From: Acidocella sp. 20-57-95
GTDB lineage: Bacteria; Pseudomonadota; Alphaproteobacteria; Acetobacterales; Acetobacteraceae
DNA length: 64,000 nucleotides
Direction of reading: 5' to 3'
Assembly: GCA_002255575.1 (NCBI GenBank)
Contig: NCAT01000003.1
Span: 62,001-126,000, forward strand
Shown here: positions 13,587 through 16,211 of the stretch, piece by piece
How positions within the stretch are numbered: position 1 is the stretch's first letter
Layout of the letters: the number at the start of each line of letters is the position of its first letter
Position numbers and translations under genes: made by a program
Notes under the pieces: generated by a model
What the model was told of the DNA's origin: nothing
What the model saw: only the letters and a program-made list of their open reading frames with translations
The model's database searches: none

Positions 13587-14528
13587 CTAAATCCCCTCCC
13601 GTGCCAGCATATCAAGCACCGCCATCCGCACGGCGACGCCCATTTCCACCTGTTCCTTGATCACTGAGCGCGCCGGGTCGTCAGCCACCGCGCTGTCGAT
13701 CTCAACGCCGCGATTCATCGGGCCGGGATGCATCACCAAGGCGTCCGGTTTCGCATAAGCGAGTTTCTCGGCATTCAAGCCATAGAACGCGAAAAACTCC
13801 CGCTCGCTGGGAATAAGCCCTTTATTCATGCGCTCTTTTTGCAACCGCAGCGCCATCACGATGTCGGCGCCCTTCAGCCCTTCCACCATGTCGTTATAAG
13901 GGGTCACGCCGAGCGAACCGATCTGCGCAGGCATCAGGGTAGGGGGGGCAATCACCCGCACATGGTTGCCCATCATCGAGAGCAGCAACATGTTGGAGCG
14001 TGCTACGCGTGAATGCGCGATGTCACCGCAAATGGCGATGGTCAGCCCATCCAACCGGCCTTTGCGGCGGCGGATGGTGAGCGCGTCCAGCAGCGCCTGG
14101 GTGGGATGTTCATGGGTGCCGTCACCGGCATTAATCACCGAGGCTTCAACCTTCTGGGCCAGCAGCGCCGGAGCGCCGGACTGGCTATGCCGTACCACCA
14201 GCAAGTCGCAATTCATTGCGTTTAGTGTGGCGGCGGTATCTAGCAGGGTCTCCCCCTTGGTGACTGAGGAGGTGGAGACCGACATGTTGATCACATCCGC
14301 CCCCAGCCGTTTGCCGGCCAGCTCAAAACTGGTGCGGGTACGGGTGGAATCCTCGAAGAATAGGTTAATCAGCGTGCGACCCCGCAACAAATCCCGTTGG
14401 GTTTTGCCGGAACGGTTCAAAAGCACGTAATTTTCCGCGAGATCGAGGAGCGACGTGATGGCGGGCGGGTTGAGACCCTGAATCCCGAGGAGATGGCGAT
14501 TTGTCATTAAAACGTGGTTAGACCACAT
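13587..14528 (-). CDS. pyrB: Aspartate carbamoyltransferase catalytic subunit
   Basis: 313 residues. Carbamoyl-phosphate binding motif STRTRTSFE near 60-68, HPTQALLD near 139-146, and the aspartate-side loop [10 protein letters not shown] and HPGPMNRG near 268-275 are intact. It joins carbamoyl phosphate and aspartate in the first committed step of pyrimidine synthesis. The stop abuts the start of the dihydroorotase-like gene, so the two are made together. A second ATG at 14507 is a possible start. It is divergent from dmeR; no attenuator-like leader is obvious in the 96 bp between. Confidence 0.96.
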
Positions 14529-14590
14529 CCGGCCGCCCCATGGGAAGACTACAGACGCGAAAGCTGAATACTAATCGCCTATCATTCAGC

Positions 14591-14619
14591 TTGCATAGGG
14601 TGCCCCCCTATGGTATAAA
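14591..14619 (+). promoter_or_regulatory. dmeRF promoter with DmeR-type operator in its spacer
   Basis: TTGCAT at 14591-14596 and TATAAA at 14614-14619 are separated by 17 bp, a good sigma-70 pair. Between them lies a perfect inverted repeat, CATAGGG (14594-14600) and CCCTATG (14606-14612), with a C6 run at 14603-14608. RcnR/DmeR-type repressors bind sites made of a G/C run flanked by AT-rich inverted repeats, so this is a strong operator candidate. Transcription would start close to the dmeR ATG at 14625. Motifs are seen directly; binding is inferred. Confidence 0.7.
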
Positions 14620-14624
14620 GCTTC

Positions 14625-14903
14625 ATGGCACACACTGTTCATGAAAAGCAGAAGCTGCTGGCGCGGATCAAGCGCATTAAAGGGCTGGTGGACGCCATTG
14701 AACGCGCTTTGGAGGCTGACGCAGGGTGTGAGCAGGTTTTGCACCTCATCGCTGGCACCAGGGGTGCCATGACCGGCCTGATGTCTGAAGTGATTGAAGA
14801 CCATGTGCGCAACCATCTGGTGGATGCCGGAAAACACCCAAACGCCTTAAACCCCGAAGCTGCTGAGCAATTGCTCGAAGTGGTGCGGACCTATTTGAAA
14901 TGA
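14625..14903 (+). CDS. dmeR: Metal-sensing repressor, CsoR/RcnR family (DmeR-like)
   Basis: 92 residues, all-helical, beginning MAHTVHEKQKLLARIKRIKGL, the usual start of the FrmR/RcnR branch. Metal-ligand candidates are His at position 3 or 6, the Cys in AGCEQVLH near 35 and His near 60 (EDHVRNH). The family binds DNA as a tetramer and lets go when nickel or cobalt binds. It is followed after 7 bp by a DmeF-type exporter, which identifies it as the local regulator. No Shine-Dalgarno is visible and the predicted transcription start falls at the ATG, so the message may be leaderless. Confidence 0.9.
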   Translation: MAHTVHEKQKLLARIKRIKGLVDAIERALEADAGCEQVLHLIAGTRGAMTGLMSEVIEDHVRNHLVDAGKHPNALNPEAAEQLLEVVRTYLK

Positions 14904-14910
14904 GCCCCCG

Positions 14911-16143
14911 ATGAGCACGCACAGCCATGTATTTTTAGGCGACGGCCATGAAGCCAACGAACGCCGTACCTGGACCGTTATCTGGATTTGTGGCGCGATG
15001 ATGCTGCTGGAAATTGTTGGTGGCGTCTGGTTTGGTTCGATCGCGCTGGTGGCCGATGGGATGCATATGAGCACCCATGCCGGTGCCTTATTGCTCGCCG
15101 CACTCGCCTATTCCTTTGCCCGCAAGCACGCCAATGACCCGCGCTTTTCCTTCGGTACCGGCAAGTTGGGTGACCTCGCCGGGTTTACCAGTGCGGTGAT
15201 TCTGGCGATGATTTCGCTGCTGATAGGATACGAGGCGATCAGCCGGCTTTTCTCTCCCGTGACAATTCATTTTGCTGAAGCCATACCCATCGCTTGTTTA
15301 GGCCTTGGCGTGAATATCGTCTCTGCCTGGTTGCTGAGCGGGGGCGGGGATCATCACCATGGCCATCATCACGGACACAGCCACGGACACAATCACGGCC
15401 ATGGCCATGAGCACCATGATGATCATGGCGAACAACAAATGGTCGCCACCGCACAGGGCATGTTGGCGATCGAGATATTTGAAGACGGCGTGCCACCGAA
15501 ATTCCGCCTAACCGCGCAATCTGGCCCGCTGCCATTAGAGGCCAGCATTGAGACGCTGCGGGCCGATGGCAGCCGGGCAATTTTTACGCTGGCCAACCAC
15601 GCCGGGTATTTGGAATCCGTGCAGGAAATACCGGAGCCGCATGGTTTTTCAGCGCTGCTACGGGTGGCGGGTGATGAATACACCGTGGTGTTTGAGGAGC
15701 ACGAACACGCGACTGACAAAATGGGGCGTGACAATAATATGCGTGCCGCGGTGGTGCATGTGATGGCGGACGCCGCGGTTTCGGTGTTGGTGATTCTGGG
15801 CCTGGTACTGGCAAAATTATTCGGCTGGCTCTGGATGGACCCGCTGGCCGGGATTGTCGGTGCGTTGGTGATCGCAAGTTGGGCATTTGGGCTCATTCGC
15901 GATACTGGCGGCATCCTGCTCGACATGACCCCCGATGCCGACATGGCAAGCAAAATCCGCCAGACGATTGAGGGGGAAGGGGATAGTATCACGGACCTGC
16001 ATCTCTGGCGCTTGGGCCCCGGCCATCTGGGCGCCATAGTCTGCGTGGGCACCCAAGCCGCCCACGGCCCGGAACATTACCGCGCCAAACTGGCACGATT
16101 TAAGGCGCTGTCGCATTTAACGGTGGAAGTAAGGCAGGCTTAG
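14911..16143 (+). CDS. dmeF: CDF family cobalt/nickel efflux transporter DmeF
   Basis: 410 residues. The first membrane half has the cation-diffusion-facilitator signature (SIALVADGMHMSTHAGALLLA, with His/Asp metal ligands) at about 45-65. A cytosolic His-rich loop lies at residues 146-178 (bases about 15346-15440). About 80 residues between the loop and helix five form an extra domain seen in DmeF-type proteins. A second HD-type pair, HVMADAAVSVL, is near 285. It exports divalent metals, chiefly Co(II) and Ni(II), by proton exchange. It is co-transcribed with dmeR. Confidence 0.93.
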   Translation: MSTHSHVFLGDGHEANERRTWTVIWICGAMMLLEIVGGVWFGSIALVADGMHMSTHAGALLLAALAYSFARKHANDPRFSFGTGKLGDLAGFTSAVILAMISLLIGYEAISRLFSPVTIHFAEAIPIACLGLGVNIVSAWLLSGGGDHHHGHHHGHSHGHNHGHGHEHHDDHGEQQMVATAQGMLAIEIFEDGVPPKFRLTAQSGPLPLEASIETLRADGSRAIFTLANHAGYLESVQEIPEPHGFSALLRVAGDEYTVVFEEHEHATDKMGRDNNMRAAVVHVMADAAVSVLVILGLVLAKLFGWLWMDPLAGIVGALVIASWAFGLIRDTGGILLDMTPDADMASKIRQTIEGEGDSITDLHLWRLGPGHLGAIVCVGTQAAHGPEHYRAKLARFKALSHLTVEVRQA

Positions 16144-16173: not shown

Positions 16174-16211
16174 TAAACCTGCCATTGCAATATAAACCTG
16201 CCATTGCAATA
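16174..16211. repeat. Tandem repeat, 19 bp x 2
   Basis: TAAACCTGCCATTGCAATA occurs twice head to tail without mismatch (16174-16192 and 16193-16211). It begins 31 bp after the dmeF stop. Two copies are too few for a clear function; it may be a replication-slippage product. Confidence 0.9.

Follow-up and report, generated by a model that had tools for sequence, protein, structure and literature searches.

A predicted autoregulated dmeRF promoter with a spacer operator and a probable leaderless or near-leaderless dmeR start in Acidocella sp. 20-57-95

A compact switch lies ahead of the metal sensor gene dmeR in the 64,000-nucleotide stretch of DNA analyzed here (the window), in which the operator, the promoter, and the translation start are contained in less than 40 bp. 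Sequence comparison and analogy with characterized systems lead us to assign a probability of about 0.8 to the reading that this is an autoregulated dmeRF promoter with an operator in its spacer, from which DmeR is released by metal, and that dmeR has a leaderless or near-leaderless start. The steps of the proposed mechanism are as follows. (i) Without metal, a DmeR tetramer would occupy the C-tract operator, which fills the spacer between the -35 and -10 elements and overlaps the former. (ii) The bound repressor would make the promoter unusable by RNA polymerase. (iii) Co(II) or Ni(II) would bind to the protein through its N-terminal region, Cys35, and His residues and loosen DmeR from the DNA. 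(iv) This release would permit the transcription of dmeR and dmeF. (v) The transcript would begin with the A of the dmeR ATG or no more than about five bases away from it. (vi) The mRNA translated into DmeR would have no leader or almost none, and it would also carry dmeF, which begins 7 bp later. The sequence, the identities of the genes, the spacing of promoter and ATG that most relatives share, and the rarity of Shine-Dalgarno motifs were established here, and the metal response, the repression, the occlusion of the promoter, and the transcription start are proposed by analogy with relatives of DmeR.

Results

The dmeR gene (14625 to 14903, plus strand) encodes a protein of 92 amino acids of the RcnR/CsoR family of repressors, of the Co/Ni type. 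The protein scored 72.2 bits against PF02583 (Trns_repr_metal; cutoff, 22.8 bits) and is the only match to this family in its own genome. All residues of the HCHH fingerprint given for DmeR (PMC7055735, PMC6044271) are present, namely, His3, Cys35, His60, and His64, and they are invariant across an alignment of 12 sequences. The scores for the NCBIfam equivalogs FrmR (85.7 of 133 bits) and RcnR (67.6 of 138 bits) were below the respective cutoffs. Compared to RcnR, the residues Glu34 and Glu63, which are ligands or likely ligands in that protein (PMC7055735), are replaced by Gly34 and Asn63. The three nearest named DmeR relatives, with 83 to 84% identity, are from Acidocella MAGs. The gene for the DmeF equivalog starts 7 bp 3' of dmeR, which is the gene adjacency that characterizes the DmeR subgroup, and the promoter is covered by AT-rich repeats around a G/C tract, which corresponds in sequence to the operators of this subgroup. 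This second gene of the presumed operon, dmeF (14911 to 16143, plus strand), encodes an efflux transporter for Co(II)/Ni(II) of the CDF family (NCBIfam NF033827; 485.3 bits, cutoff of 250). The window gene is thus dmeR, of the DmeR (Co/Ni) subgroup of RcnR/CsoR repressors, and its release from DNA by Ni/Co is predicted; the identity proposed in a first-pass annotation of this DNA is borne out by the PF02583 match, the HCHH fingerprint, and the adjacent dmeF. The divergent neighbor pyrB (13587 to 14528, minus strand; NCBIfam NF002032, 410.1 bits) encodes aspartate carbamoyltransferase and was not counted as part of the switch. About 30 bp 3' of dmeF there is a perfect 19-bp tandem duplication (16174 to 16211).

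Direct reading of the plus strand before dmeR revealed a -35 element TTGCAT (14591 to 14596), a 17-nt spacer (14597 to 14613), a -10 element TATAAA (14614 to 14619) that is directly preceded by TGG to form an extended -10 (14611 to 14619), a discriminator GCTTC of 5 nt (14620 to 14624), and the ATG (14625 to 14627), which is the predicted start codon and transcription start. The predicted operator is a dyad (14594 to 14612) with the arms CATAGGG (14594 to 14600) and CCCTATG (14606 to 14612) separated by N5, and it includes a C6 tract (14603 to 14608). The two hexamers, the length of the spacer, the dyad, the C6 run, and the ATG are as the first-pass annotation had described them, and its statement that the ATG is not preceded by a ribosome site holds as well, the discriminator being devoid of a Shine-Dalgarno (SD) motif. 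That annotation placed the operator in the spacer; the dyad does fill the spacer but begins inside the -35 hexamer, with the CAT of TTGCAT, and ends 1 bp before the -10 element, so that it is not wholly contained in the spacer. When the region from -45 to +10 of this locus was scored for combinations of a -35 and a -10 element, the best one used TATAAA at 14614 to 14619. A strict consensus sigma-70 scan detected no site in 14500 to 14700; the scan requires T6, which is absent from TATAAA, and is therefore blind to this promoter. When up to 2 mismatches were permitted, the dyad was found at a single site in the window, with 0 mismatches, as compared to a mean of 0.17 sites in shuffled sequences. 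A wider operator pattern matched one site with 0 mismatches and one other with 3 in the genome of the strain (3.04 Mb, 98.23% complete); the latter was taken as a chance match, and a DmeR regulon beyond dmeRF was rejected. Within the window there was no Rfam match at gathering thresholds, and a folding prediction for the initial 70 nt of the RNA showed nothing out of the ordinary (z of 0.14). The gap between pyrB and dmeR also contains a 9-bp perfect inverted repeat, AAGCTGAAT-N14-ATTCAGCTT (14561 to 14592), which overlaps the first two bases of the -35 element and was not seen upstream of dmeR in two relatives (L003 and L005).

An in-frame TAA (14616 to 14618) inside the -10 box closes the dmeR frame to any entry from further upstream; only two codons lie between it and 14625, neither of them a start codon, and no start codon in the open frame precedes the ATG at 14625. 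An N terminus further downstream is unlikely because the N-terminal amine and His3 are among the metal ligands of RcnR (PMC7055735), and the conserved His ligand is residue 3 when translation begins at this ATG. We assembled a pool of 105 dmeR loci (80 named loci and 25 from a search for relatives, with overlap). From this pool, 32 loci were removed, either because at least 43 of their last 50 bases were identical to a locus that was kept or, if there were any such loci, because fewer than 50 upstream bases were available. Two 42% paralogues (L026 and L027) and three weak matches (L028 to L030) were excluded, and the loci from a class search (L033 to L050) were held outside the resulting nonredundant set of 73; dmeF starts were present as controls in 70 of these. 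The start codon is ATG in 72 of the 73 loci. A small residue 2 followed by His3 was found in 68 of the DmeR proteins, and the other 5 (L082, L100, L106, L123, and L127) begin with Met-His-Thr. These lack one residue relative to the common Met-X-His-Thr, and their N-terminal metal site should be altered as a result. In all of these shorter loci but L106, TTG and the -10 element maintain their distance to the shifted ATG.

The 73 loci are mutually related, and the following counts are not independent. (i) TTG was present at -37 to -34 from the ATG in 49 of the 73 upstream regions, whereas other 4-nt blocks had a mean of 4.1 and a maximum of 6; this count involves no preselection of the TTG nearest to -35.5. 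(ii) The best joint -35/-10 fit, in which the -10 element was free over -45 to +10, placed the start of the -10 at -14 to -10 in 45 of the 73 loci and elsewhere in the remaining 28; shuffling, repeated 50 times, placed it there in 4.9 ± 2.2 loci (maximum of 10), with -14 to -10 being the range meant, and at dmeF this was so for 9 of 70 starts. (iii) Position -1 is occupied by C at 50 of 73 dmeR starts and at 16 of 70 dmeF starts. (iv) SD motifs (GGAG, GAGG, or AGGA at -17 to -5) were found before 6 of 73 dmeR starts, 24 of 70 dmeF starts, and 50 of 202 first starts of the contig. This motif count was adopted after the anti-SD duplex energy had failed to separate dmeR from dmeF (medians of -2.9 and -3.2, respectively; shuffled, -2.1). 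(v) The standard deviation of the TTG-to-ATG distance was 1.58, and that of the operator-to-ATG distance was 4.75 (51 of the 73 loci), the choice of the TTG nearest to -35.5 biasing this comparison toward the result. The placement of TTG and of the -10 element, the C at -1, the small number of SD motifs, and the ATG starts all fit a transcript that begins on the A of the start codon. For dmeR, a transcription start at the ATG itself or a few bases from it is thus very probable. The combination of TTG, -10, and ATG is not the local norm, since only 2 of 202 contig ORFs of at least 120 codons (a length that dmeR itself does not reach) conformed to this rule. No contig-wide -10 peak was seen before the first ATGs of 125 ORFs.

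A sub-case of our preferred explanation is that the same promoter starts at 14620 to 14624, which would produce a leader of 1 to 5 nt without a ribosome site and leave the function otherwise unchanged. The variation among loci of the gap between the -10 element and the ATG, which is 5 nt in the window, would suit this sub-case; discriminators are seldom much shorter than 5 nt, and a scatter of 1 to 2 nt is common among start sites. We nevertheless consider it rather unlikely, given that the C before the A in 50 of the 73 loci corresponds to a pyrimidine-purine start and that both published cases in the family map exactly to the A (PMC5057107, PMC12724321). It is improbable in our view that the region between pyrB and dmeR contains another promoter, upstream of the one described, that produces an mRNA with a leader and for which the operator would serve as a roadblock. 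The inverted repeat at 14561 to 14592 and the positive element between -120 and -39 inferred for the nreA promoter (PMC12724321) can be cited in its favor, but the ATG lacks a preceding SD motif, the in-frame TAA lies within the -10 box, and the distance of the -35 TTG to the ATG is kept in 49 of 73 loci. Furthermore, the scan of 14500 to 14700 provided no promoter-like site, though it also misses the TATAAA promoter.

We then turned to the operator. ATAGG or ATAGC was present at -35 to -18 in 70 of the 73 loci, and its position defined three registers, namely, A (-35 to -29; 49 loci, including that of the window), B (-28 to -22; 10 loci), and C (-21 to -18; 11 loci), with 3 loci in none of them. 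The longest operator tract is composed of C in some relatives and of G in others; Acidocella aquatica NBRC 112502 (L121), for example, shares the register of the window but carries a G tract. The perfect 7-bp arms reported in the first-pass annotation are not general among relatives, whereas ATAGG/ATAGC and a C or G tract are widely kept; the conservation of the tract and of TAT was judged by eye, and that of ATAGG/ATAGC was counted. That relatives do not share the full arms would suit a dyad that is a chance palindrome in a constitutive promoter. This explanation is nonetheless highly improbable, considering that the ATAGG/ATAGC motif is present in nearly all loci and that the site matches the published dmeR operator of Sinorhizobium meliloti (PMC6044271).

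Register and tract polarity each changed at least 8 times on the protein tree, which is poorly resolved. TTG was found at -39 to -34 in 34 of 49 loci of register A, 5 of 10 of register B, 11 of 11 of register C, and 3 of 3 of the others; the -35 element holds its place relative to the ATG across registers. At some loci of register B, the TAT half-site can itself open the -10 element (for example, TATACT in L082). In register C, the best -10 was at -14 to -10 in only 3 of 11 loci, none of them with a good hexamer, and TACCCC, which several of these loci have at a distance of 17 to 18 bp from the TTG hexamer on its 3' side, is a candidate -10 only. The operator almost abuts the dmeR ATG in the 11 loci of this register (L025, L057, L067, L069, L073, L074, L078, L081, L085, L095, and L098) and also in L146, with hosts that include Rhodopila, Acidisphaera, and Sinorhizobium sp.; the first 11 have TTG at -39 to -36 and no good -10.

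Several loci outside the set of 73 were also inspected. The geometry of the window recurs in a Rhodopseudomonas plasmid (L145; TTGAAA-17-TATATT-5-ATG) and in L033, where TATATT lies 6 nt before the ATG. Among the 18 family members from the class search, 15 were scored (the starts of L043 to L045 were unclear), and 8 of these carry an SD motif, which indicates that the motif test can detect SD-led starts. Two of these loci encode relatives of DmeR with 66% (L034) and 60% (L035; start codon TTG) identity, and in both the operator is followed by an SD motif. The leaderless geometry is therefore not universal even near DmeR, and these two loci appear to be natural leadered counterparts.

Discussion

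The compact design is already known from experiments on relatives of DmeR, namely, NreA and CsoR. The Mesorhizobium nreA promoter (2025) has a leaderless start on the A of the AUG, as determined by 5'-RACE and with a reporter in Agrobacterium fabrum (PMC12724321). As in the window, a CsoR/RcnR-family repressor is encoded by the first gene of an efflux operon (for Ni in the case of NreA), the operator fills the -35/-10 spacer, TTG is at -36 from the ATG, and there is no SD motif. NreA differs in that it belongs to another clade and has a Cys38/His63/Cys67 site, the operator TATCC-N9-GGATA, and the transporters NreX and NreY; the term DmeR is absent from the main text of that paper (PMC12724321). 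In Bradyrhizobium, the mRNA of csoR, another family repressor, maps to its AUG by RACE and is thus leaderless, and its operator lies over the -10 element, but CsoR is a copper sensor and the csoR-cueA promoters are divergent and overlapping (PMC5057107). These experimental precedents, together with the comparison of the 73 loci, support both the leaderless or nearly leaderless start and the operator in the promoter core that the first-pass annotation had proposed.

The closest counterpart is dmeRF of S. meliloti, which comprises both genes and a near-identical operator, ATAGGGTACCCCCCTATGCTATG, that overlaps the promoter; induction by Ni/Co and derepression in a dmeR mutant have been described for this system (PMC6044271). 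Unlike that of the window, the operator string quoted for S. meliloti ends in the letters ATG (PMC6044271), and in Sinorhizobium sp. M103 (L146, 49% identity) the end of this string is the start codon, a register different from that of the window. The Escherichia coli RcnR operator (type 1) is likewise associated with a Ni/Co response but consists of tandem TACT-G6-N-AGTA sites, and the exporter is RcnA (PMC3902906). Leaderless mRNAs have been reported at 62 of 1,344 start sites in the acetic acid bacterium Gluconobacter (PMC5756330) and at 171 sites in S. meliloti (PMC3616915).

At even odds, we propose that leaderless initiation is a selected trait in most of the DmeR clade, with the -35 element locked to the ATG, the operator sliding in three registers, the G/C tract flipping strands, and the TAT half-site in some cases serving as the -10 element as well. 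This clade comprises Alphaproteobacteria and some records labeled beta- or gammaproteobacterial. The lock between promoter and ATG across DmeR is possibly new, as the spread of this geometry was not found in print in a search that covered part of the literature. If selection maintains the trait throughout a clade of metal repressors, two questions become open to experiment, namely, whether translation without a leader provides a faster or stress-proof supply of repressor and efflux pump and whether the metal-ligand N terminus pins the start. Plasmid records considered for an independent DmeR set carried mostly FrmR/RcnR annotations among the 60 listed of 1,312. The Rhodopseudomonas plasmid contains two divergent CsoR/RcnR-family genes, of which one is the dmeR with the window-type promoter layout, and the other is preceded by a site that resembles the published NreA operator.
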